A DNA stretch of 64,000 nt from Neorhizobium galegae (GTDB lineage Bacteria; Pseudomonadota; Alphaproteobacteria; Rhizobiales; Rhizobiaceae), in contig NZ_JAGIPG010000003.1 of the NCBI RefSeq assembly GCF_017877055.1, forward strand, positions 496,001-560,000. Reading direction: 5' to 3'. Positions within the stretch are counted from its first letter, which is position 1; each line of letters starts with the position of its first letter. Below are positions 16,279-27,645 of this stretch, in pieces. Position numbers and translations under genes: made by a program. The notes beneath the pieces are model-generated. The model searched no databases, was not told the DNA's origin, and worked only from the letters and a program-made list of their open reading frames with translations.

Positions 16279-16300
16279 GATCGACATCCGGAGCACCAGA

Positions 16301-16885
16301 TCAGTGCTGGCCGGGTGAGCCAGGGCCATCCTTCCAGCGCTTGACCATCGGCAGGTGGATATCGAAGAGATCAAGCGCCCGGCCGACGGTCTGGGTCACC
16401 ATCTCGTCCAGTGAATTAGGCTTCGAATAGAAGGCGGGCACAGGCGGCATGACGATTGCCCCGTTGCGGGTCGCCTGGTCCATCAGCGCGATATGGCCGG
16501 CATGCAGCGGCGTTTCGCGAAACAAGAGCACGACACGCCGGCGTTCCTTCAGGCAGACGTCGGCCGCGCGCACGATCAGCTCGTCATTGTAGCAGTTGGC
16601 GATGCCGCTCAGCGTCTTCACCGAACAGGGTGCGACAAGCATGCCGGCGGTGCGGAACGAGCCGGAGGAGAGCGCCGCGCCGATATCCTTGTGATTATAG
16701 AGCACGTCAGCCAGGCTCTTGATCTCTTCGGCACTCATGTCGATTTCGTCGATCGCCGTGCGGAAAGCGGAGGGCGAGATCACCGCATGGGTCTCGACAT
16801 CCTCGACTTCCTTCAAAAGCTGCAGGGCGCGAACGCCATAGACGACACCGGAAGCTCCAGTGATGGCGATGATAATGCGGCGCAT
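16301..16885 (-). CDS. ubiX: Flavin prenyltransferase UbiX
   Basis: The protein has 194 residues. It shows IIIAITGASGVVYGVRALQ at the start (FMN-binding loop), CSVKTLSGIANCYNDELIVRAADV near residue 92 and RRVVLLFRETPLH near residue 120, all typical of UbiX/Pad1. It attaches a dimethylallyl unit to FMN to make the prenyl-FMN cofactor of UbiD-type decarboxylases. No ubiD gene is present in the window. The start is ATG 16885; upstream the same frame contains an unrelated regulator fragment, described separately. Confidence 0.9.
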   Translation of the reverse strand: MRRIIIAITGASGVVYGVRALQLLKEVEDVETHAVISPSAFRTAIDEIDMSAEEIKSLADVLYNHKDIGAALSSGSFRTAGMLVAPCSVKTLSGIANCYNDELIVRAADVCLKERRRVVLLFRETPLHAGHIALMDQATRNGAIVMPPVPAFYSKPNSLDEMVTQTVGRALDLFDIHLPMVKRWKDGPGSPGQH

Positions 16886-16993
16886 GGGACTTTTTTCCCT
16901 GAACAATGTATCGCGACGCCTTAGCGCCACTTTCCGATGGGCGCAATGTGCCGCTCGTCGGATTGCTCGCATGTTTTCGGTAGCGGCCCCTCC

Positions 16994-17090
16994 TACCAGC
17001 CGGGTGCCGGGCTTGAGCGCGCCGGTTTGGATCGCCCGCCGCATGGAGTTCATGATCTCGTTGTGCGCAAGAATGCCGGCGCGTGGACGG
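16994..17090 (-). pseudogene. GntR-type regulator fragment (DNA-binding helix only)
   Basis: Read leftwards, this stretch encodes ILAHNEIMNSMRRAIQTGAL followed by KPGTRLV, the opening helix and beta-turn of GntR winged helix domains. The expected recognition helix (xxSRTPVREAL) is absent and the frame continues with arginine-rich noise into ubiX. No start codon with a ribosome site precedes it. I read it as the remains of a GntR regulator cut by deletions on both sides. The match is short, so this is tentative. Confidence 0.4.
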
Positions 17091-17121
17091 GCGGACCAGG
17101 CGATGCTGTGATCGGAACAGG

Positions 17122-17425
17122 GGTTCGTGGCGGATTGATTCCACGGCGAAAAAAATTCGCCGACGAGTTCTTCGAAAAGCTTGCGGCGCGGGCCGTGATG
17201 GTTGATCATGCGGCCGATGCCGGAGTAGCGGAGGCTATTGCGACGGCGGCGGTTGCCGCGCCAGTCATGTCAGCTGCACCATCGGCACCCATTTCCCCCG
17301 CGGCTCCAGAAGCTGCCGGACCGTCTGTCGCGTCTGCGGCGCCGGCCGTGCAGCCTTCCAGCCGTATGTCCTATGTCGTCGCCGGTCTCGTCGCTGTCAT
17401 TGCCATCGCAGCGCTCGCCGCCTGA
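17122..17425 (+). pseudogene. CoxG-like (SRPBCC) C-terminal remnant
   Basis: Just before the molybdenum hydroxylase genes, one frame reads IDSTAKK and the next frame reads KFADEFFEKLAA. Together these give the end of a CoxG protein (normally SRLIDSTAKKLADEFF), broken by one extra base in the A7 run near 17150. The rest, rich in alanine and proline and ending in one membrane helix ([18 protein letters not shown]), is the usual CoxG tail. The N-terminal 130 or so residues are missing. CoxG proteins anchor or mature CO-dehydrogenase-type enzymes at the membrane, which fits the next two genes. Confidence 0.5.
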
Positions 17426-17445
17426 GTTTTAAAGAGGAGGGGCCT

Positions 17446-17937
17446 TTGTCCCGCATCACCATTACCGTCAACGGCACACCGCAGACGCGCGACGTCGAAG
17501 ACCGGACGCTGCTCGTGCAGTTCATCCGCGAGCATCTCGGCCTCACCGGTACACATGTGGGCTGCGACACCACCCAGTGCGGCGCCTGTACGATCCATCT
17601 CGACGGGGAGGCCGTCAAGAGCTGTACGGTGCTTGCCGTCGCGGCTGACGGTTCCCAGGTGACGACGATCGAAGGGCTGGCCGAAGGCGGCAAGCTGCAT
17701 GACGTGCAGCAGGCTTTTCACGAACATCACGGTCTGCAGTGCGGTTATTGCACGCCGGGCATGATCATGGCCTCGGTCGACATGATCCGCCGCCATGACG
17801 GCATGCTTGACGAGCACACCGTTCGTCACGAACTCGAGGGCAATATCTGCCGCTGCACCGGTTACCACAACATCGTCAAGGCGGTGCTCGACGCTGCCGA
17901 AAAGCATCGCGCGGCGCATGCCGTCGCGGCCGAGTAA
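17446..17937 (+). CDS. Molybdenum hydroxylase small subunit, two [2Fe-2S] clusters (CoxS-like)
   Basis: The 163-residue protein has an N-terminal plant-type ferredoxin domain ([15 protein letters not shown] near residue 44) and a C-terminal all-helical domain ([11 protein letters not shown] near residue 101, [11 protein letters not shown] near residue 135). This is the electron-transfer subunit of xanthine dehydrogenase/CO dehydrogenase-type enzymes. The start is TTG 17446, with GAGGAGGGG nine bases before it. The FAD subunit follows after 16 bases, but no molybdopterin-binding large subunit is encoded next to it. Confidence 0.9.
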
Positions 17938-17953
17938 GCGGGAGGACCACATC

Positions 17954-18769
17954 ATGTACGCAACGACCTACCACAAGCCGAAGACACTCACCGAAGCCGT
18001 CGAACTCTTTGAGAGTTCCGAGGAGCCCTCCTATCTTTCCGGCGGCCACACGCTGATCCCGACGTTGAAGAGCCGGCTTGCCGCGCCCGCGCACCTGATC
18101 GACGTCCGCAACATTCCGGACCTGTCGGGCATCGAAGTCACCGCCGACAGTGTGATCATCGGCTCGGCGACCAAACACGCCGTCGTCGCCGCTTCGAAGG
18201 AAATCAAAGCCGCCATCCCGGCGCTCTCGGGCCTCGCCGGCTCGATCGGCGACGTGCAGGTGCGCCACATGGGCACGATCGGCGGCTCGACCGCCAATAA
18301 CGACCCGGCCGCCGACTATCCGTCCGCGGTGCTGTCGCTCGATGCGATCGTCCATACCGATCGCCGCGAAATCCCCGCCGACGAATATTTCCAGGGCCTC
18401 TACGCGACTGCATTGGAGCCAGGCGAAATCCTCGTCCGCGTCGAGTTCAAGATCCCGGAAATCGCCGGTTATGCGAAATTCCGCAATCCGGCCTCGCGCT
18501 ATTCGATGGCAGCTTCCTTCGTCGCCAAACATCGCGACGGCCACGTCCGCGTCGCGATCACCGGTGCCGGCAACGAGGGGGTGTTTCGCTGGCCTGAGGC
18601 CGAGGAGTTACTGACCGAGAACTTTTCGGCCGAAGCGCTGGAGGGCCTGACCATCGACCCGTCGCGGATGATGGGCGACATGCATGCGCCGGCCGATTAC
18701 CGCGCCCATCTCGTCGCCGTCATGACACGCCGCGCGATGCAGAACCTTGGTGGCACGCACATCCTCTGA
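17954..18769 (+). CDS. Molybdenum hydroxylase FAD subunit (CoxM-like)
   Basis: The protein has 271 residues. The FAD-binding motifs of the CoxM/XdhB family are present: YLSGGHTLIP near residue 31 (AGGHSLLP in CoxM) and MGTIGGSTANNDPAADYP near residue 101, followed by the C-terminal CO_deh_flav domain. It passes electrons from the iron-sulfur subunit to the acceptor. GGGAGGA lies before the ATG at 17954. A strong hairpin ends the transcript just after this gene, so the operon seems to be only these two genes. The substrate cannot be stated because the large subunit is not here. Confidence 0.88.
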   Translation: MYATTYHKPKTLTEAVELFESSEEPSYLSGGHTLIPTLKSRLAAPAHLIDVRNIPDLSGIEVTADSVIIGSATKHAVVAASKEIKAAIPALSGLAGSIGDVQVRHMGTIGGSTANNDPAADYPSAVLSLDAIVHTDRREIPADEYFQGLYATALEPGEILVRVEFKIPEIAGYAKFRNPASRYSMAASFVAKHRDGHVRVAITGAGNEGVFRWPEAEELLTENFSAEALEGLTIDPSRMMGDMHAPADYRAHLVAVMTRRAMQNLGGTHIL

Positions 18770-18795
18770 GGACAGATGTTCTGCCCGGAGACTGA

Positions 18796-18825
18796 AATGG
18801 CCGGCGGGGCGACCCGCCGGCCATT
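18796..18825. terminator. Strong hairpin between convergent genes
   Basis: AATGGCCGGCGGG (18796-18808) and CCCGCCGGCCATT (18813-18825) form a perfect thirteen-pair stem with a GCGA loop. It lacks a long T-run on either strand but sits between the FAD subunit gene and the convergent MarR gene, where it can stop transcripts from both sides. Confidence 0.6.
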
Positions 18826-18864: not shown

Positions 18865-19401
18865 TCATTGCGGCAGGTCTCGCAACGGCGATACCGCATC
18901 TTCAAGATGTTGGGGCGTGCCGAAGGTCGCGGCGATCCGGCCGAGCACAGCGATCAGCACCGCTTTGTCCTTGCCGGCGATCTCGTCAAGATGGCGGTCG
19001 TATACGACGGCGATCGCGTGCAAACGCTCCTGCATTTTGCGACCGTTTTCGGTGAGCCTGACGCTGTAGCTGCGTTGATCGTCGGGGTTCGCTCGCCGTT
19101 CGATCAGTCCGCGATGGGACAATGCCTTGAGACTGGAGGTAAGCGTCGAGCGGTCGCGGCCACAGATTCGGCTGAGCTCCGACGGTGTCATGCTCTCCCG
19201 GTCGGCAAGCACCGTCAGTAGCGAATACCATCCGGGCTTCAGATCCGCCTTGCCGGCCGCCCTGGCAAACGCCTGGAAGGACATCTCCTGTGCCACCCTC
19301 AGATGATATCCGATCAGATTCTGGAACATGGCCGGGACAAGCATCTCGCCCTCCGCAGGCGTTGCTTGCGCGTCCTGTCGTATCGATGATTCAACCGTCA
19401 T
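18865..19401 (-). CDS. MarR family transcriptional regulator
   Basis: This 178-residue winged helix regulator shows MTPSELSRICGRDRSTLTSS and HRGLIERRANPDDQRSYSVR, the recognition helix and wing of MarR proteins. The start is ATG 19401 (MTVESSI), preceded by GGGAGGAG at eight bases. Its position after the molybdenum hydroxylase pair and a palindrome in its own promoter suggest autoregulation and perhaps control of a nearby aromatic or exporter gene. The ligand is unknown. Confidence 0.85.
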   Translation of the reverse strand: MTVESSIRQDAQATPAEGEMLVPAMFQNLIGYHLRVAQEMSFQAFARAAGKADLKPGWYSLLTVLADRESMTPSELSRICGRDRSTLTSSLKALSHRGLIERRANPDDQRSYSVRLTENGRKMQERLHAIAVVYDRHLDEIAGKDKAVLIAVLGRIAATFGTPQHLEDAVSPLRDLPQ

Positions 19402-19457
19402 TCCTGCACTCCTCCCGCTGTGGAAGCTATTAGGAATGGGGAGATGCGGCAATATAG

Positions 19458-19637: not shown

Positions 19638-21035
19638 CTATTCGGCGGCCTGGTACCGGTCGACTGCCGGCGAAGGTTTCGGCCCGAGCGCTGCGATCAG
19701 CGTGATCACCACCGCGAGCGTCGCGACAAAGGCGATGGCGGCGGAATAGGGTTCCCAGCCTAAGCTGGGAGCGCCGCTGAACACGGCAGACGTTGCCGCC
19801 AGCACCACGCCGCCGCCGATCTGGAAGGCGGCGAAGAACATGCCGGAGGCAAGCCCCGATTTATCCTCCTCGATATCGGCCAGCGCCGCGACCTGGATCG
19901 ACGGGAAGGTCATGGCATAACCGAGGCCGAGCGGAATCTGCGAGAGCACGACCAGCAGGATCGGGTCGATATGGCCGACCGACAGGACCCAGAAGATGTA
20001 GCTTATTGCCTGCAACGCCACGCCCGCTGTCATGAAGCCGGTCGTGCCGCGGTTCTGGGCGAGCGTCGCGAAACGAGGGGCCAGGAACATCACGAAGGCG
20101 CCAGCGCCGGCAAAGCAGAAGCCAGTCACAAAGGCCGACCAGCCGTAGACGGCCTGATAATAGAGCGTGGCGGTGAACTGGAAGCCGATATAGGCACCCT
20201 GATAGAGGAAACCGACAATATTGGCATGGGTAAGTCTAGCGCGGCGGAACATCGCGAGCGGCACCATCGGGTCCTTATGGCGGGCTTCGATGGCGAGGAA
20301 GGCGAGGATCAGCACGACTGCGGCCACCAGCGAGCCCCAGGTGAGGAGGTCGGCCCAGCCGGCTGAGGCCGCATTGGTGATGCCGAACACGAAGAGCAGC
20401 AGGCCGGGGGTGATGGTGATCGCGCCGGCCCAGTCGAAGCCGGGGCGCGGTCCGGTACGGCGTGCGTCGAGCGGCAGGGCTATCGGCGCAAGGAGCAGGG
20501 TCAGGATCGCGACCGGCGCCCCCATCACCAGCGTTGCCCGCCAGCTGATCAGCGTCGCAGCGCCGCCGAGCACCATGCCGAGCACAAAGCCGGCTGCCCC
20601 GGTGGAGGCAAAGAGGCCAAGCGCCTTGGCACGCTGTGGCCCTTCGCCGAACACTGCCAGCAGGAGTGCCAGCGCTGCGGGTGCCGTGAAGGCAGCGGCG
20701 ATTCCCTTGATGAGGCGGGCGGCGATCAGCGTGGGACCGCTGTCGACGAAACCGCCGGCGATGCTGGCCGCTGCAAAGATCGCCAGCGACCAGAGGAACA
20801 CGCGACGATGCCCGAAAATGTCGGCGACGCGGCCTCCGAGCAGCAAAAAGCCGCCATAACCGAGCACATACGCGCTGACCGCCCATTGCAGGGAGGTGGG
20901 CTGCATGCCGAGCTCGGCCTGGATGGCGGGAAGTGCGACGCCGATAGTAGAGACATCCATCGCGTCGAGAAAATTGGCGGTGCAGAGCAGCAGCAATGCG
21001 AGCCCCGCAGCCCCTCGGAATTGAGGATTGCTCAT
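19638..21035 (-). CDS. MFS transporter, DHA2 (14-TM drug exporter) type
   Basis: The 465-residue protein is almost wholly hydrophobic, with about fourteen membrane segments. It shows LDAMDVSTIGVALPAIQAEL at residues 23-42 (motif D1 of the DHA2 family), GGRVADIFGHRRVF near residue 67 (motif A) and GxxxGPxxGG-like GFVLGMVLGGA near residue 149 (motif C, proton antiport). The family exports drugs or other small hydrophobic compounds. The gene is transcribed away from a LysR gene that probably regulates it. Confidence 0.88.
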   Translation of the reverse strand: MSNPQFRGAAGLALLLLCTANFLDAMDVSTIGVALPAIQAELGMQPTSLQWAVSAYVLGYGGFLLLGGRVADIFGHRRVFLWSLAIFAAASIAGGFVDSGPTLIAARLIKGIAAAFTAPAALALLLAVFGEGPQRAKALGLFASTGAAGFVLGMVLGGAATLISWRATLVMGAPVAILTLLLAPIALPLDARRTGPRPGFDWAGAITITPGLLLFVFGITNAASAGWADLLTWGSLVAAVVLILAFLAIEARHKDPMVPLAMFRRARLTHANIVGFLYQGAYIGFQFTATLYYQAVYGWSAFVTGFCFAGAGAFVMFLAPRFATLAQNRGTTGFMTAGVALQAISYIFWVLSVGHIDPILLVVLSQIPLGLGYAMTFPSIQVAALADIEEDKSGLASGMFFAAFQIGGGVVLAATSAVFSGAPSLGWEPYSAAIAFVATLAVVITLIAALGPKPSPAVDRYQAAE

Positions 21036-21128
21036 GGGATTCTAATCCTTGTGTATGCTGCCCCCGGAGCGGGGAGGTCGAACCGGGCCGGCAGAGGATC
21101 GAGAAAGTGTCCATCTTCGAGACCCATT

Positions 21129-21144
21129 GCAAATTGATAATTGC
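21129..21144. promoter_or_regulatory. Possible LysR operator between MFS and LysR genes
   Basis: GCAAATTGATAATTGC is a near-palindrome with T-N11-A geometry in the 126-base divergent promoter region. LysR proteins typically bind such sites next to their own genes. No footprint-type evidence exists here, so this is only a candidate. Confidence 0.35.
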
Positions 21145-21161
21145 CATGGCAGGTATTACTG

Positions 21162-22127
21162 ATGATGATGAATGATGCGACCCTTCGAAAGATCGACCTC
21201 AACCTGCTTCTGGCCTTCGCGGTGCTGATGCAGGAACGGAACGTCAGCCGCGCCGCCGAGCGGCTACTCCTCGGACAACCGGGCCTGTCGGCAGCCTTGA
21301 AGCGATTGCGCGAGGCACTGGACGACGACCTGTTCGTGCGTGTCGGTCGCGGCCTGCAGCCGACGCCCCGGGCGCTGGCAATCGCGCCTGTGATCGAGGA
21401 TGCGCTTTCGAACATCGAACGGGCGATCCGTCCGCCGGCCGCATTCGATCCCAAAAGCTGGGAAGGCGAGTTCCGCATCGGCATGTGCGACAATCTCGAA
21501 TCGGCTTTTTTCGGCCCGCTGGCCGCTCGTCTGCGGCAGTTCTCGCCCGGTTCGCGGCTGATCGGAGTCGCCTCGGACCGGCGTGACGTTTCGCGCATGC
21601 TGGATGACGGCGCGTTCGATTTCAGCGTCGCGGTGCATGGCGATCCGGCCTCCTGGCACGTCCGCGCACCGCTCTTCACCCAGTCGTCCGTCTGCGTCTA
21701 CGACCCCGCGCAGATCAAGCTCAATGCGCCGCTCGGCCTCAACGACTACGCGGATGCGCCGCATGTGGCCGTCTCCTTCGAGGGCAATTCCTCGACCAGC
21801 ATCGACGTTGCGCTCGCCCGTCACGGGAAAACCCGCAATGTCGTGGCGACTGTGCCGCGTTTTTCGGCGCTGCCGACGGCACTTCGGGCGATGCCGGCCA
21901 TCGCCACTATTCCGGAATCGATCGCCCGCTGCATGGCCCAACTCCATAATCTAACGATCGACCTGCCGCCGATCAACCTGCCCGCCGAGCCGGTGAGCAT
22001 GCTCTACCGGCGCGTCGACCATGCGGACAGCCGTGCCTCATGGTTCCGCACCCTCTTCGTGGAGGTCGCCGGCGCGGCGCTCGAAGCCTCCGGCTGCAAG
22101 ATGGGAATCTCGCGGATCGCAGCTTAA
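21162..22127 (+). CDS. LysR family transcriptional regulator
   Basis: The protein has about 321 residues with the LysR helix-turn-helix (IDLNLLLAFAVLMQERNVSR followed by AAERLLLGQPGLSAALKRLR) and a two-lobed effector domain. It belongs to the NodD/LinR-like branch (RKIDLNLL opening). The start is one of three tandem ATG codons at 21162-21170; a TTG at 21141 would add seven residues. Neither has a clear ribosome site. It is divergent from the MFS exporter, the classic arrangement for a LysR gene and its target. Confidence 0.85.
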   Translation: MMMNDATLRKIDLNLLLAFAVLMQERNVSRAAERLLLGQPGLSAALKRLREALDDDLFVRVGRGLQPTPRALAIAPVIEDALSNIERAIRPPAAFDPKSWEGEFRIGMCDNLESAFFGPLAARLRQFSPGSRLIGVASDRRDVSRMLDDGAFDFSVAVHGDPASWHVRAPLFTQSSVCVYDPAQIKLNAPLGLNDYADAPHVAVSFEGNSSTSIDVALARHGKTRNVVATVPRFSALPTALRAMPAIATIPESIARCMAQLHNLTIDLPPINLPAEPVSMLYRRVDHADSRASWFRTLFVEVAGAALEASGCKMGISRIAA

Positions 22128-22281: not shown

Positions 22282-23874
22282 ATGAGAGACTTCGAATTAC
22301 CCGGCCGTTCGCTCGCCGTCGGCCGCACTGCGATGGCCGCAACCTCACAGCCGCTGGCGACGCTCACCGCCATCGACACCCTGCGCAATGGCGGCAATGC
22401 CGTGGATGCGGCGGTCGCCGCCTGCGCCGTGCAATGCGTGGTCGAGGCGGGTTCGACCGGCATCGGCGGCGATTGCTTCGCTCTCCTGTCGCTCGGCGGC
22501 ACGGACGAGGTGCTGGCCTATAATGGATCAGGCCGCGCACCGGCTGCCACAACCGTCGCACATCTCCGTTCGCTCGGCGTCACCAGCCTCACCCGCACCT
22601 CGCCGCATACGATCACCGTGCCGGGCGCGGTGGATGCCTGGACGCGGCTGGTGGCCGATCACGGCCGTTTGAAGATGGCCGATATCCTTGCGCCGGCGAT
22701 CAAGCTGGCGCGAGATGGATACGTCCTGCCTCCGCGCACGGCGCACGACCTTGCCGCCCAGGCGGAGTTCTTGAAGGGCGACCCGGCCGCGAGCCGCGTC
22801 TTCCTCATCAACGGTGAAGCGCCGCCGGCCGGTTCGATCCAGTATCAGAAACAACTCGCCGATACGCTCGAAGCCATCGGCCGGGAGGGCAGGGATGCCT
22901 TCTATCGCGGCCCGATCGCGGAAGGCATGGTGAGCTACCTGAACGGCATCGGGGCGCTGCATACGCTCGAGGATTTCGCCAACGCCCGTGGTGAATACGT
23001 AACGCCGATCAAGACGACATTCCGTGGCCACGAAATCCACGAATGCCCGCCGAACGGCCAAGGCATCATCGCGCTGATGATCCTCAACATCCTGTCGCAT
23101 TTTCCCGGCAAAGGCGATCCGCTGGCGCCTGAACGCCTGCATATCGAGGTCGAGGCGACGCGTCTGGCCTATGCAGCGCGTAACCGTTTGCTCGCCGATC
23201 CGGCCAAGGTCGATGTGCCGGTCGATTACCTGCTCTCGGACGAACTCGCCAGTGAATTGGCTGGTATGATCGATCCCGAAAAAGCGATAGAGAACCTGCC
23301 GCCCTTCGACGAAGTGCCGCACAAGGACACGATCTATCTCTCGGTCGTCGATGGCGACCGCAATGCAATCAGCTTCATCAACTCGATCTTTTTCGTTTAC
23401 GGCAGCGGCCACATGGACCCCAAGAGCGGGGTGATGTTCCACAACCGGGGTTTCAGCTTCTCGCTCGACCCGGACCATCCGAACGCGATCGCGCCGGGCA
23501 AGCGACCGATGCACACGATCATCCCCGGCATGGTGACGAAGGATGGCCGCGCGATTATGCCCTTCGGCGTCATGGGCGGCCAGTATCAGGCGATGGGCCA
23601 CGCCCATTTCCTCTCGAAGGTCTTCGACTACGGCATGGACCTCCAGAGCGCCATCGACCTTCCGCGCCTTTTCCCGCTGCCCGGCACCAATCAGGTCGAA
23701 ATGGAAGCCCGGCTGCGCAGCACGGTCAGCCCAGAGTTCACCAAGCGTGGTTTCGAGGTGAAGGCGCCAGAATCGGCGATGGGTGGTGCCCAGGCGATCT
23801 GGATCGACTGGGAGACTGGCGTGCTGAGGGGCGGCTCCGACCCTCGCAAAGACGGCATGGCGCTCGGCATCTGA
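22282..23874 (+). CDS. Gamma-glutamyltransferase family protein
   Basis: The protein has 530 residues without a clear signal peptide. The Ntn-hydrolase nucleophile of the family is Thr350 in KDTIYLSVVDGD, where autocleavage would separate large and small chains. Other GGT blocks are GGNAVDAAVAACAVQCVVEA near residue 36, NGQGIIALMILN near residue 255 and GVMGGQYQAMGHAHFLS near residue 430. Cytoplasmic members of this branch often act on substrates other than glutathione, so the reaction is left open. GGGAGG precedes the ATG. The 154 bases upstream hold no other gene. Confidence 0.85.
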   Translation: MRDFELPGRSLAVGRTAMAATSQPLATLTAIDTLRNGGNAVDAAVAACAVQCVVEAGSTGIGGDCFALLSLGGTDEVLAYNGSGRAPAATTVAHLRSLGVTSLTRTSPHTITVPGAVDAWTRLVADHGRLKMADILAPAIKLARDGYVLPPRTAHDLAAQAEFLKGDPAASRVFLINGEAPPAGSIQYQKQLADTLEAIGREGRDAFYRGPIAEGMVSYLNGIGALHTLEDFANARGEYVTPIKTTFRGHEIHECPPNGQGIIALMILNILSHFPGKGDPLAPERLHIEVEATRLAYAARNRLLADPAKVDVPVDYLLSDELASELAGMIDPEKAIENLPPFDEVPHKDTIYLSVVDGDRNAISFINSIFFVYGSGHMDPKSGVMFHNRGFSFSLDPDHPNAIAPGKRPMHTIIPGMVTKDGRAIMPFGVMGGQYQAMGHAHFLSKVFDYGMDLQSAIDLPRLFPLPGTNQVEMEARLRSTVSPEFTKRGFEVKAPESAMGGAQAIWIDWETGVLRGGSDPRKDGMALGI

Positions 23875-23982: not shown

Positions 23983-24783
23983 ATGAACATTGATCTGCAT
24001 TCCTGGATCAGGCTCGCGGTGACGTCGGTCGCCGCCGCCTTCGTATCACTCGCCTCCTTTGCTGCTCCCGCAGGAGCGCAAGAAAAAGTTACCGTCTTTG
24101 CGGCAGCCAGCATGAAGAACGCACTCGACAACGCCAACAAGGGATGGGCCGCCCAGGGTGGCAGGGAAGTCATCGTTTCCTACGCCGCAAGTTCGGCGCT
24201 CGCCAAGCAGATCGAAAGCGGCGCGCCTGCCGATATCTTCATTTCGGCCGATCTCGACTGGATGAAGTATGTTTCCGACAGGAAGCTCGTCAAGGAAGAC
24301 ACCAGGTTCAACTGGCTCGGCAACAGCATCGTGCTGGTCGCCGCCAAGGATGCCGCCAAGCCGGTCGACATCGGGCCGGGCTTCGATCTCGCGGGCCTGC
24401 TCAAAGGTGGCAGGCTTGCCATGGGTGAGCCGAATGCGGTTCCGGCAGGCAAGTACAGCAAAGCCTCGCTCGAAAAACTTGGGCTCTGGTCGTCGGTCGA
24501 AAAGAGCATAGCAACTGCCGAAAGCGTCCGGGCGGCACTCGCGTTCGTCTCGCGCGGCGAAGCGCCTTACGGCATCGTCTACCAGACGGATGCGGCGGCC
24601 GATCCGGGTGTTGCCATCGTCGGCACCTTCCCAGCCGACACCCATCCGCCGATCATCTATCCGATCGCTATCCTGTCGGAATCGAAGTCCACGGATGCGG
24701 CCGCCTATCTCGACTATCTGAAGTCGGCCAAGGCAGCGCCGTTCTTTGAAAAGGAAGGTTTTACGGTTCTGAAGCAACCGTAA
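23983..24783 (+). CDS. modA: Molybdate ABC transporter, periplasmic binding protein
   Basis: The 266-residue protein has a signal peptide to about residue 29 (APAGA/QEKVTV). It then shows VFAAASMKNALDNANKGW, SYAASSALAKQIESGAPADI and FISADLDWMKYV, the oxyanion-binding signatures of ModA. It delivers molybdate (or tungstate) to ModBC. Unusually, modB starts 1.06 kb downstream, after two unrelated small genes. The nearby molybdenum hydroxylase genes need the metal this system imports. Confidence 0.92.
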   Translation: MNIDLHSWIRLAVTSVAAAFVSLASFAAPAGAQEKVTVFAAASMKNALDNANKGWAAQGGREVIVSYAASSALAKQIESGAPADIFISADLDWMKYVSDRKLVKEDTRFNWLGNSIVLVAAKDAAKPVDIGPGFDLAGLLKGGRLAMGEPNAVPAGKYSKASLEKLGLWSSVEKSIATAESVRAALAFVSRGEAPYGIVYQTDAAADPGVAIVGTFPADTHPPIIYPIAILSESKSTDAAAYLDYLKSAKAAPFFEKEGFTVLKQP

Positions 24784-25075
24784 GGACTCCCGCAAGGGGT
24801 CATCGAAACGATCCCTCTCCGGGCTGCGTTTCGCTTGCCGTCGGCGGTTCTCAAGAGGGAGCCGGTCCGGTCAGCCTGACCCGAATCTCGATTTCAACCC
24901 ATCTCACACGATCGTTTGTTCTCGAATCCCGAACATTCCGTTTGGAAATCAGACCCTAGCGACCTCGATCAGGCTCCCCATCTCCATGACCGGAAGCAAA
25001 CAATGCGCTTCCCCAATACCACTTAGCGGACGCCGGCTCCCAAACGGCTCCGTCCATCAATTGAGGAATACGACA

Positions 25076-25306
25076 ATGAAAACCGTTCTATCCACACTTG
25101 CCGCTGCCATGATCGCTTCGGCTTCCTTCGCCGGCGTCGCCCTTGCAGAAGGCGATTACTATCAGGGTGCGACTAAGGGACAGGCAGCGGTGCAGACCAA
25201 CGACAAGGTCGACAATGTCAGGACCGGCAGCATCGACCAGGTTCGCACCAACGATAATCGCGGTGACCAGCCGATCTTCAGGCATGAAAGCCGCGACAAC
25301 CGCTAA
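25076..25306 (+). CDS. Small secreted protein, paralogue 1
   Basis: The protein has 76 residues: a signal peptide to about residue 24 (AGVALA/EGDYYQG), then a short hydrophilic chain with VRTGSIDQVRTNDNR and a terminal RDNR. I do not recognise the family beyond resemblance to short periplasmic proteins common in rhizobia. It is a paralogue of the next gene, sharing AEGDYY, VRTGSI and RDNR. TTGAGGAATA before the ATG supplies the ribosome site. The 292 bases between modA and this gene hold no gene I can support. Confidence 0.7.
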   Translation: MKTVLSTLAAAMIASASFAGVALAEGDYYQGATKGQAAVQTNDKVDNVRTGSIDQVRTNDNRGDQPIFRHESRDNR

Positions 25307-25401
25307 CCGGCACAAACCGCAGCTCATTCAAGATACCGAACATCGTCCGCCAGGCAGGTCGCAAACTTGAGCCCCGGACGAACTCTGAAAGGACTAGGAC
25401 A

Positions 25402-25629
25402 ATGAAGACTTCCATCTCCGCTATCGCCGCCATGATCGCCGCCGCTTCCTTCGCAGGTTCGGCCCTCGCCGAAGGCGACTATTATGAAGGCACCTCGAAG
25501 ACCCATGCTTCCGCCAGGGTCAACGGCGGCAATGTGGACAGCGTCCGCACCGGCAGCATCCAGATCCGCGACAACGATCGCCAGGAAAGCCAGTCGATCT
25601 TCGGCGACACGACCCGCGACAACCGCTAA
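25402..25629 (+). CDS. Small secreted protein, paralogue 2
   Basis: This 75-residue protein is organised like the preceding gene: a signal peptide to residue 23 (GSALA/EGDYYEG), VDSVRTGSIQIRDNDR in the middle and TTRDNR at the end. AAAGGA lies 11 bases before the ATG. About a third of the mature residues are shared with paralogue 1, so the pair arose by tandem duplication. A role in the envelope is inferred only from the signal peptide. The pair separates modA from modBC. Confidence 0.7.
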   Translation: MKTSISAIAAMIAAASFAGSALAEGDYYEGTSKTHASARVNGGNVDSVRTGSIQIRDNDRQESQSIFGDTTRDNR

Positions 25630-25700
25630 CCCGTCGCGCACGAGAACCGAGGCTCCACGGGCCTTCGTTCAGCAAACCATCTTGTAAATGCGATGGTGTA

Positions 25701-25731
25701 GGGAGAGCAGCGGTAGACCCGGCGCTCTCCC
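25701..25731. terminator. Hairpin upstream of modB
   Basis: GGGAGAGC (25701-25708) and GCTCTCCC (25724-25731) form an eight-pair stem with a 15-base loop. There is no T-run. It lies between the second small gene and modB and may limit read-through into modBC. Confidence 0.4.
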
Positions 25732-25794
25732 ACCGCCGTTTCCCGAATCCTCCAGTAACTTTTCCGCCAGGACCTAGCCATTAGACCCGTCCCG

Positions 25795-25816
25795 ATATAT
25801 CCAATGCGATATATTG
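25795..25816. promoter_or_regulatory. Repeat element before modB resembling the modA operator
   Basis: CGATAT at 25795 and again at 25807 flank CCAATG, and the far end ATATTG nearly mirrors the first arm. The core GATATCCAA is identical to that of the modA palindrome. This suggests modBC have their own promoter under the same regulator as modA. Confidence 0.5.
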
Positions 25817-25844
25817 CATGGCGGCTACGGATGGGGATCGGCGT

Positions 25845-26546
25845 TTGGACTGGCTGGCATTGAGCGACGAGGAATGGACCGCGATCAGGCTCAGCCTGAA
25901 GGTTTCCGCCGTCGCGATGATCGTCAGCCTGCCGTTCGGCATTTTCGTCGCTTACCTGCTCGCCCGCGGAAAGTTCTGGGGCAAGTCGATCTTGAACGGC
26001 ATCGTCCACTTGCCGCTCATCCTGCCGCCGGTCGTCACCGGTTTTCTGCTGTTGATACTGTTCGGACGACGAGGCGTCATCGGTGCCTTTCTCAGCGAAT
26101 ATCTCGGCATCGTTCTCTCCTTCCGCTGGACAGGTGCAGCACTTGCCTGCGGCGTCATGGGCTTTCCGCTGATGGTACGCTCCATCCGGCTGTCGATCGA
26201 GTCCGTCGACCGCAAGCTGGAAGAGGCGGCCGGCACACTCGGCGCAGGACCCGCCTGGGTTTTCATCACCGTGACGCTGCCGCTTATCCTGCCGGGCGTG
26301 ATCGCCGGCATGATCCTCGCATTCGCAAAGGCGATGGGCGAGTTCGGCGCGACGATTACCTTCGTCTCCAATATTCCCGGTGAAACCCAGACCCTTTCCG
26401 CAGCGATCTACACGTTCACGCAGGTGCCGGGCGGAGATGCCGGCGCGATGCGGTTGACGCTGGTCGCGATCGCCATCTCGTTTGCCGCGCTGCTTGCCTC
26501 GGAGTTCCTGGCCTATCTGATTGGCAAGAGGGTCCATATCGAATGA
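25845..26546 (+). CDS. modB: Molybdate ABC transporter permease
   Basis: This is a 233-residue permease with five or six membrane segments. The EAA loop is [20 protein letters not shown] near residues 140-159, and [20 protein letters not shown] near residue 175 is the conserved ModB block. The start taken is TTG 25845 ([11 protein letters not shown]), because GGGGA lies six bases before it and homologues begin at this point. An ATG at 25818 would add nine residues but has no ribosome site and overlaps the operator-like repeat. It overlaps modC by four bases. Confidence 0.9.
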
Positions 26547-27604
26547 CCCTCACCGTCAAGGCACGGCAGACGCTGGGAGAGTTTGTCCTCGATGCGGGCT
26601 TCACCTCGGATGGCGGCGTGACCGCCCTGTTCGGACCTTCGGGCTCCGGCAAGACGTCGCTCGTGCGAGTGATCGCGGGACTGTCGAAGCCGGAACACGG
26701 GCGGTTGGTGGTCGACGGCGAAACGCTGCTCGATACTGAAAGCCGCATTTTCGTGCCGAAGCACAGACGGCGGTTCGGCTACGTCTTCCAGGAGAGCCGG
26801 CTTTTCCCTCACCTCTCGGTGCGTCAGAACCTCGCTTATGGCCGCTGGTTCGCGCCGAAGACAGCGGCGCCGGAAAATTTCGATCGGATCGTCGAACTAT
26901 TGGGTATCGGCCTGCTCCTCGACCGGCGGCCGGGGAAGCTTTCAGGTGGCGAAAAACAGCGCGTCGCGATCGGGCGGGCGCTGCTCTCTGCTCCGCGTCT
27001 CCTTCTGATGGATGAGCCGCTCGCCGCGCTCGATGACCTGCGCAAGGCCGAAATCCTGCCCTATCTCGAACGCCTGCGCGACGAGACCTCGACGCCGATC
27101 GTCTATGTCAGCCATTCGGTTTCGGAAGTGGCGCGGCTTGCCGACAACGTGGTGATTATGAAGGACGGCCAGGTCGAGGCCGTCGGCACGCCGTCGGAGG
27201 TCCTCTCAATGCCATCGACGGAACGCCGCGATGCCGGGGTCGTGCTGACTGGCACGGTCGAGACGATCGATATCCCGCATCGGTTGGCGACGATCCGGCT
27301 TGCGCAGGCGCAGATCGTCGTGCCGAATGCTCGGGTCGAAGAGGGGAGAAGCGTCCGGGTGCATATCCCCGAACGCGACGTCATGGTCGCCACCCAGCGG
27401 CCGGAGGGGTTGAGCGCCCTCAACATCCTGGAAGGCGCGATTGCGGCGATCGAGCCGGACGGCGACGGCATGGTTCGCATCCGCATCCGCTGCGGCGGGG
27501 ACATGGTGCTCGCCCGCATCACCGCGCTTTCGGCGGACCGCCTCGACCTGAGGCTCGAAAAGCCGGTATTTGCGGTGATCAAGACGGTGGCTCTGGAGCG
27601 GTAG
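26543..27604 (+). CDS. modC: Molybdate ABC transporter ATP-binding protein
   Basis: The 353-residue protein carries the Walker A motif GPSGSGKTS near residue 32, the signature [15 protein letters not shown] near residue 133, Walker [13 protein letters not shown] near residue 153 and the switch histidine in YVSHSVSE. The C-terminal 130 residues, including a Mop/TOBE domain, are the molybdate-sensing part typical of ModC. It energises ModB, and the four-base overlap with modB shows coupling. Confidence 0.92.
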
Positions 27605-27645
27605 CGTGGACTGATCTTCAGCGAGTTGTGAACTATGGATTACAA

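Follow-up and report, generated by a model that had tools for sequence, protein, structure and literature searches.

A CoxS-CoxM pair of Neorhizobium galegae stays under purifying selection after deletion of its linked molybdenum hydroxylase large subunit

The stretch of Neorhizobium galegae DNA analysed here, called the window, comprises 64 kb (C3:496001-560000) of a 6.35-Mb genome (G000; 99.97% complete, 11 contigs). It contains two genes for molybdenum hydroxylase subunits, the iron-sulfur subunit CoxS (S) and the FAD subunit CoxM (M), located between ubiX and a marR-family regulator gene (Table 1). A preliminary description of the locus regarded both genes as intact and 16 bases apart, which is borne out: both are open reading frames with a gap of this length, and their Pfam domains are matched. 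CoxS matches Fer2_2 (109.8 bits) and Fer2 (31.1 bits) above cut-off, and the FAD-binding domain of CoxM is clearly matched, with its C-terminal CO_deh_flav_C domain at 23 bits, below the 25.5-bit cut-off. The eight cysteines of CoxS (40, 45, 48, 60, 99, 102, 135, and 137) fit a two-cluster pattern and CoxM carries the motifs SGGHTL and TIGGSTAN, all of which we take to be cofactor motifs. Solved structures matched by CoxM include CO dehydrogenase medium chains and 4zoh_B. The molybdopterin-binding large subunit (L) was likewise correctly described as absent beside the pair, as no MoCoBD_1 (PF02738) match was found within the 64-kb window; the coxSM operon thus lacks an L gene. Among the neighbouring genes, ubiX matches both of its NCBIfam models above cut-off and is 95-99% identical to its counterparts in N. 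galegae HAMBI 540 (G014), Rhizobium sp. CF080 (G001), and the related genome G022, and ModA, ModB, and ModC are 78-90% identical to those of N. petrolearium.

Table 1. Features of the coxS-coxM locus and its surroundings (positions in the window).
Feature	Position	Strand	Remarks
ubiX, flavin prenyltransferase, kept, left deletion edge	16301..16885	-	PRK06029 255 bits, TIGR00421 229 bits
gntR remnant, 3' part	16907..16988 (bounds approximate)	-	window to 16988 aligns with L119 to 1053
gntR remnant, inner to 5' part	16995..17095	-	L119 1543-1641, 84%
coxG 3' remnant (frame 17147-17425, start lost)	17122..17425	+	N. petrolearium coxG and following spacer, 82%
coxS, [2Fe-2S] subunit, 163 aa, TTG start	17446..17937	+	Fer2_2 and Fer2; best solved match 4zoh_C
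coxM, FAD subunit, 271 aa, ATG start	17954..18769	+	FAD_binding_5 148.7 bits
13-pair hairpin, between converging coxM and marR	about 18796..18825	+	no T-run in window
marR-family regulator gene	18865..19452	-	same place in N. petrolearium
ggt, conserved cluster neighbour	22282..23874	+	
modA, modB, modC (molybdate transporter), conserved neighbours	23983..27610	+	N. petrolearium orthologues
modB	25845..26543	+	bounds approximate
modC	26543..27610	+	bounds approximate

The thirteen-pair hairpin noted earlier downstream of coxM is also real. Its folding has a z-score of -2.57, none of 200 shuffled sequences folds equally well, and a stem of 8 to 13 pairs is predicted at the same site in all eight sequences folded (the window and seven relatives). 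A T-run 3' of the hairpin is present in G001, G004, G022, and N. petrolearium and absent from the window, G014, VafX2, and 7g, and a terminator scan of the window did not call the hairpin among its sites.

Comparison with intact clusters reveals what the locus has lost. In CF080 and N. petrolearium OS53 (L181), the order is ubiX, gntR, a gene for a large subunit (L798), and ubiD, followed on the opposite strand by a second large-subunit gene, coxL823, an NMT1-like gene, coxG, coxS, and coxM, with coxG present in OS53 and absent in CF080 and G004. The G004 cluster is intact from gntR to coxM; ubiX was not found beside its gntR. The order coxL823-NMT1-coxG-coxS-coxM also occurs in S. fredii NGR234 and CCBAU 45436, S. 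meliloti LMB1, R. jaguaris, R. mayense, P. trifolii, T. mesophila, A. brevis, and the genome G212. Orthologues of ubiX, coxS, coxM, marR, ggt, and modABC are shared between the window and the OS53 and CF080 clusters, whereas gntR, L798, ubiD, coxL823, and the NMT1-like gene (and, in OS53, coxG), which these two keep, are lost from the window or present only as fragments. The 560-base spacer between ubiX and coxS (16886-17445) holds two pieces of gntR and a 3' remnant of coxG. In the comparison stretch L119, gntR spans 972-1703, and about 490 bases are missing between the two pieces in the window; the protein of the coxG remnant corresponds to residues 130-208 of the 222 residues of N. petrolearium CoxG (82% identity). 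These alignments show that a deletion of about 8 kb took most of coxG together with coxL823, L798, ubiD, and the NMT1-like gene; the window locus thus lacks a large subunit because coxL823 was lost in this event. While ubiX was retained across the scar, ubiD was lost; two UbiD genes are found elsewhere in G000.

The same scar is present in G014. In the records of N. galegae 7g, VafX2, HAMBI 1141, and HAMBI 540, a single unbroken match (89-90%) covers window positions 16300-18778, and the positions of ubiX, the coxG remnant, coxS, and coxM agree with those in the window. As this junction recurs uninterrupted in four N. galegae plasmid records, of which those of 7g, VafX2, and HAMBI 1141 are described as complete sequences, we give practically no credence to an assembly artefact as the source of the missing subunit gene.

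coxL823 is also gone from G022 and Neorhizobium sp. EC2-8, with scars that differ from that of the window. They keep the very end of the NMT1-like gene and a coxG-less spacer of the G001 type, both lost from the window, whereas the coxG piece kept in the window scar is absent from theirs. Since neither scar type can be derived from the other, there must have been at least two deletions, and G022 and EC2-8 may share one of them. In a tree of UbiX, GGT, and MarR, G000 groups with G014, and G022 with the intact G001 (100% of 200 bootstraps, four species); trees of S+M, L812, L800, and L812+L800 (the latter two being large subunits discussed below) did not resolve the five species (supports 36-67). 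The EC2-8 stretch (L180) has two matches each to marR, ggt, and modC and three to L812, reflecting sequencing errors or decay. Another difference lies to the right of the pair, where the window and G014 carry genes for an MFS transporter and a LysR regulator (19638-22127) between marR and ggt; they were not found at this place in G001 and G022, indicating a later insertion or loss.

Despite the loss of the linked catalytic gene, the remaining pair does not decay. Between the scar-sharing genomes G000 and G014, identity is 91% for coxS and 90% for coxM; neither gene differs in length or contains gaps, and changes are mostly at third codon positions (omega 0.029 and dS 0.47 for coxS; omega 0.089 and dS 0.40 for coxM). 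A branch test on the 426 codons of coxS+coxM, using a GY94-type codon model with F3x4 frequencies and the fixed tree (G000,G014),(G022,G001),G004 with the G000 and G014 end branches as foreground, gave an omega of 0.040 on the post-deletion branches vs. 0.0425 elsewhere (p=0.8), and omega=1 on the post-deletion branches was rejected (LRT 257.8). For comparison, a second S+M pair of the same five genomes, encoded on C5 in G000, has an overall omega of 0.053. As judged from these codon comparisons, purifying selection on coxS-coxM was not relaxed after the deletion. Gene exchange with intact relatives could be another route by which the pair was kept functional. A functionless relic whose decay is still to come would fit the loss of the large subunit, the upstream genes, and most of coxG, as well as a promoter scan that found no promoter-like site upstream of coxS, its single match sitting inside coxM. 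We nevertheless consider a relic highly improbable, given the rejection of omega=1, the synonymous divergence accumulated between scar-sharing species, and the state of the adjoining ubiX-to-coxS spacer, which is 83% identical between G000 and G014 and has seven gaps, each of one or two bases, over an alignment of 552 bases, compared to none in coxS and coxM.

If the pair is functional, a catalytic partner may be encoded elsewhere. The genome contains 12 large, 11 Fe-S, and 7 FAD subunits; 13 large-subunit match rows were obtained, of which two are parts of one frame, and all lie outside the window. When a large subunit was counted as paired if an S gene lay no more than 5 kb away on its strand, as judged by eye, ten of the 12 were paired. 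The search for orphan CoxL/XdhB-like subunits proposed in the preliminary description thus returned two without S or M, L812 (C3:742560-744995, on the same contig as the window pair) and L800 (C1, about 291.5-293.9 kb), and the window S and M are the only such subunits in G000 without an L. The same definition was applied to G014 (two unpaired L and one unpaired S among 10 L and 9 S), G022 (two and one among 8 L and 7 S), G001 (three and one among 10 L and 8 S), and G004 (three and none among 11 L and 8 S). The unpaired S of G001 is a lone gene at C7:98807 (L178:4595-5068), 38-40% identical to CoxS and distinct from the coxL823-linked S; no large subunit was detectable in 12 kb around it. L812 shares a contig with the S/M pair in each of the five species, and no CoxS- or CoxM-like sequence was found around L812 and L800 in stretches of 13-18 kb. 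The single CoxS/CoxM match in this neighbourhood search came from an extra stretch (L151, genome G021), where it lies beside another large subunit. In all five species, L812 is preceded on its strand by a gene for a luciferase-like monooxygenase, and a GntR regulator gene lies farther upstream.

L812 is the closest of the 12 large subunits to coxL823, at an identity of 48%. A relocated cognate subunit in G000 was therefore rejected, and the earlier suggestion that the large subunit is encoded elsewhere does not hold for the cognate subunit, whose gene was deleted. The L812 group is joined to the CoxL823 group with supports of 99/90 in a large-subunit tree for which the program warns of long branches. 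Both groups have the unusual loops YRS[AS]GRPE (with Ser) and GGEGGTTP, present in 5/5 L812 and 9/9 CoxL823 rows, and the L812 homolog of G415 has the first loop and lacks the second.

A precedent for large subunits without their own S and M comes from the glyceraldehyde oxidoreductases (GAOR) of the archaeon Sulfolobus tokodaii. Among solved structures, the S chain 4zoh_C is matched best by the window CoxS, and 4zoh, which we take to be GAOR2, is the sole entry of this family in the list of matches. The report on the purified and crystallised S. tokodaii enzymes describes one M/S pair (STK05620/STK05610) as common to the two large subunits of GAOR2 and GAOR3, STK23390 and STK24840, which are encoded far from it (PMC4726530). 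The window resembles this system in its adjacent S and M genes and the unpaired L genes elsewhere in the genome. In contrast to GAOR2/GAOR3, S and M of the window became separated when the cognate L gene beside them was deleted, and their sharing by other large subunits is presumed.

The pair is the surviving end of a molybdenum-hydroxylase/UbiD gene cluster, and the unrelaxed selection shows that it is still needed. We consider it probable that, like the S. tokodaii pair, it acts in trans on a distant large subunit, most likely L812. The deletion of about 8 kb stripped the locus of its own catalytic subunit, with CoxS and CoxM remaining in demand. They would then bind a large subunit encoded elsewhere and pass electrons from it through the two [2Fe-2S] clusters to FAD and on to an acceptor. 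L812 is the prime candidate, being on the same contig, the closest relative of the lost subunit in the genome, and without S/M genes of its own; L800 might be a further partner, with less to recommend it. The suggestion in the preliminary description that the two proteins serve another partner thus gains support from the unrelaxed purifying selection and the two large subunits without S or M. Taken together, this suggests that the helper subunits, kept under strong selection, now serve other, distantly encoded catalytic proteins.

Orthologs of L812 (88-100%) are found in 5 of 36 genomes of the genus, and the same five have an orthologous CoxM (at least 87%), although this co-occurrence is within one clade and therefore not independent evidence. 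L812 is present in all seven genomes or records lacking coxL823 at the locus: G000, G014, G022, and the plasmid records of HAMBI 1141, 7g, VafX2, and EC2-8 (in three pieces). It is also found in three genomes that keep coxL823 (G001, G004, and N. petrolearium) and so does not depend on the loss. L812 was not found in four other coxL823-intact genomes (R. mayense, P. trifolii, T. mesophila, and A. brevis), where the best match, at 49-50%, is CoxL823 itself. Among 397 genomes of the order, only five, including G000, reached an E-value of 1e-200 with L812; the other matches are a 61% homolog without S/M nearby in G415, CoxL823-type subunits with S/M in G169 and G212, and an unpaired subunit (46%) in G052. 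In G415 and in G021, which has a 79% homolog of L800, CoxS is matched at no more than 69%. Such orphans can therefore exist alongside other S/M pairs, and the dependence of L812 and L800 on this particular pair may be loose. The G415 homolog (L156:7298-13516) is flanked by genes resembling those for enoyl-CoA hydratase and acyl-CoA synthetase, a hint that its substrate may be CoA-linked.

Selection on the candidate partners themselves was not informative. In the three genomes without coxL823, L812 (p=0.00019) and L800 (p=0.004) appear more constrained, but the controls (the C5 L, the C5 S+M, XdhB, and XdhA) shift in the same direction (XdhB p=0.04). Moreover, G001 keeps coxL823 yet resembles the deleted lineages, the signal coming from G004 and the inner branches. 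Tighter selection on L812/L800 was thus rejected as partner evidence because it is not specific.

The preliminary description named, as a finding that would speak against its reading, a complete coxMSL set elsewhere that leaves the window pair silent. A complete paralogous S-L-M set exists on C5 (L123), but coxS and coxM of the window bear no marks of decay. The C5 CoxS and CoxM are 67% and 57% identical to those of the window and belong to the same subunit family; they differ in that the L gene lies between S and M and in their position on another branch of both the S+M and L trees. This paralogous set opens the alternative that the window pair mainly joins the C5 L as a spare or alternative module, with L812 and L800 using the C5 S/M or none. 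The C5 set could indeed supply the orphans, and the occurrence of L812 and L800 homologs in genomes without the window-type pair is compatible with this. We regard it as rather unlikely, since identity to the lost CoxL823 is only about 39% for the C5 L, less than for L812, and a mere spare would be expected to relax, whereas omega is not raised.

A new role independent of molybdenum subunits, such as that of a small flavin/iron-sulfur carrier delivering electrons to another enzyme, would also account for the retention of the pair without a linked L, and the monooxygenase encoded near L812 in the five species could need electrons. However, coxS and coxM are as constrained after the loss as they were before it, so that a change of function is not indicated, and unpaired large subunits are available in the genome. 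We therefore judge a carrier role to be decidedly improbable, and acting in trans on a large subunit such as L812 remains our preferred explanation.

As for the reaction catalysed, S and M are homologous to those of the CoxLMS CO dehydrogenases of the Oligotropha/Hydrogenophaga type (1n5w, 1ffu), from which the window locus differs in having no linked L. The loop AYxCSFR, presumably the active-site loop of form I (CO-oxidising) CO dehydrogenase, was found in 0 of 14 large subunits (L812, L800, and the C5 L out of the 12 of G000, CoxL823, L798, and nine from the metagenome-derived genomes G436-G438). Form I CO dehydrogenase was accordingly rejected among the subunits checked, and CO as a substrate is unsupported.

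Unlinked S/M pairs are not confined to Neorhizobium. Among the best 80 CoxM loci of at least 574 relatives, a set that may omit the genome of the window itself, 73 encode a large subunit nearby whose alignment extends over at least 600 residues. Of the other seven, three (L048, L057, and L114) are short or close to the end of a contig, and L068 has its L in broken pieces. The remaining three, L071, L113, and L116, contain S and M, with no L in about 12 kb. L071 and L116 have the order coxG-coxS-coxM, and coxG is 1.6 kb away in L113. In the S+M tree, L071 groups with L116 (100/100) and L113 with L114 (99/96), apart from the window clade. Unpaired subunits were counted in the genomes of L071, L113, and L116, three metagenome-assembled alphaproteobacteria in which genes may therefore be missing: one L and one S in G436 (5 L, 5 S), three L and one S in G437 (10 L, 8 S), and five L and one S in G438 (L169-L173, L116; 6 L, 2 S, 2 M). 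No bacterial case of an S/M pair acting in trans was recognised in the open-licence literature searched. Trans-sharing as such is already known from the archaeal GAOR2/GAOR3; in Neorhizobium, the pair became unlinked by deletion of its L.

It is an evenly balanced proposition that some alphaproteobacterial molybdenum hydroxylases are modular, with one S/M pair (often accompanied by coxG) serving several scattered and exchangeable large subunits. The linked catalyst was deleted at least twice in Neorhizobium with the chassis under strong selection, and G438 combines five unpaired L with one unpaired pair. If these enzymes are modular, catalytic subunits could be lost and gained without losing the chassis. 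The pairing of molybdenum hydroxylase subunits is usually assigned by gene neighbourhood. If S and M act in trans, “orphan” large subunits would be working enzymes, and many bacteria would have an oxidative repertoire that is currently underestimated. The Neorhizobium deletions offer a natural experiment in which the linked catalytic subunit is present in some close relatives and absent from others, making trans-assembly directly testable in culturable root symbionts.
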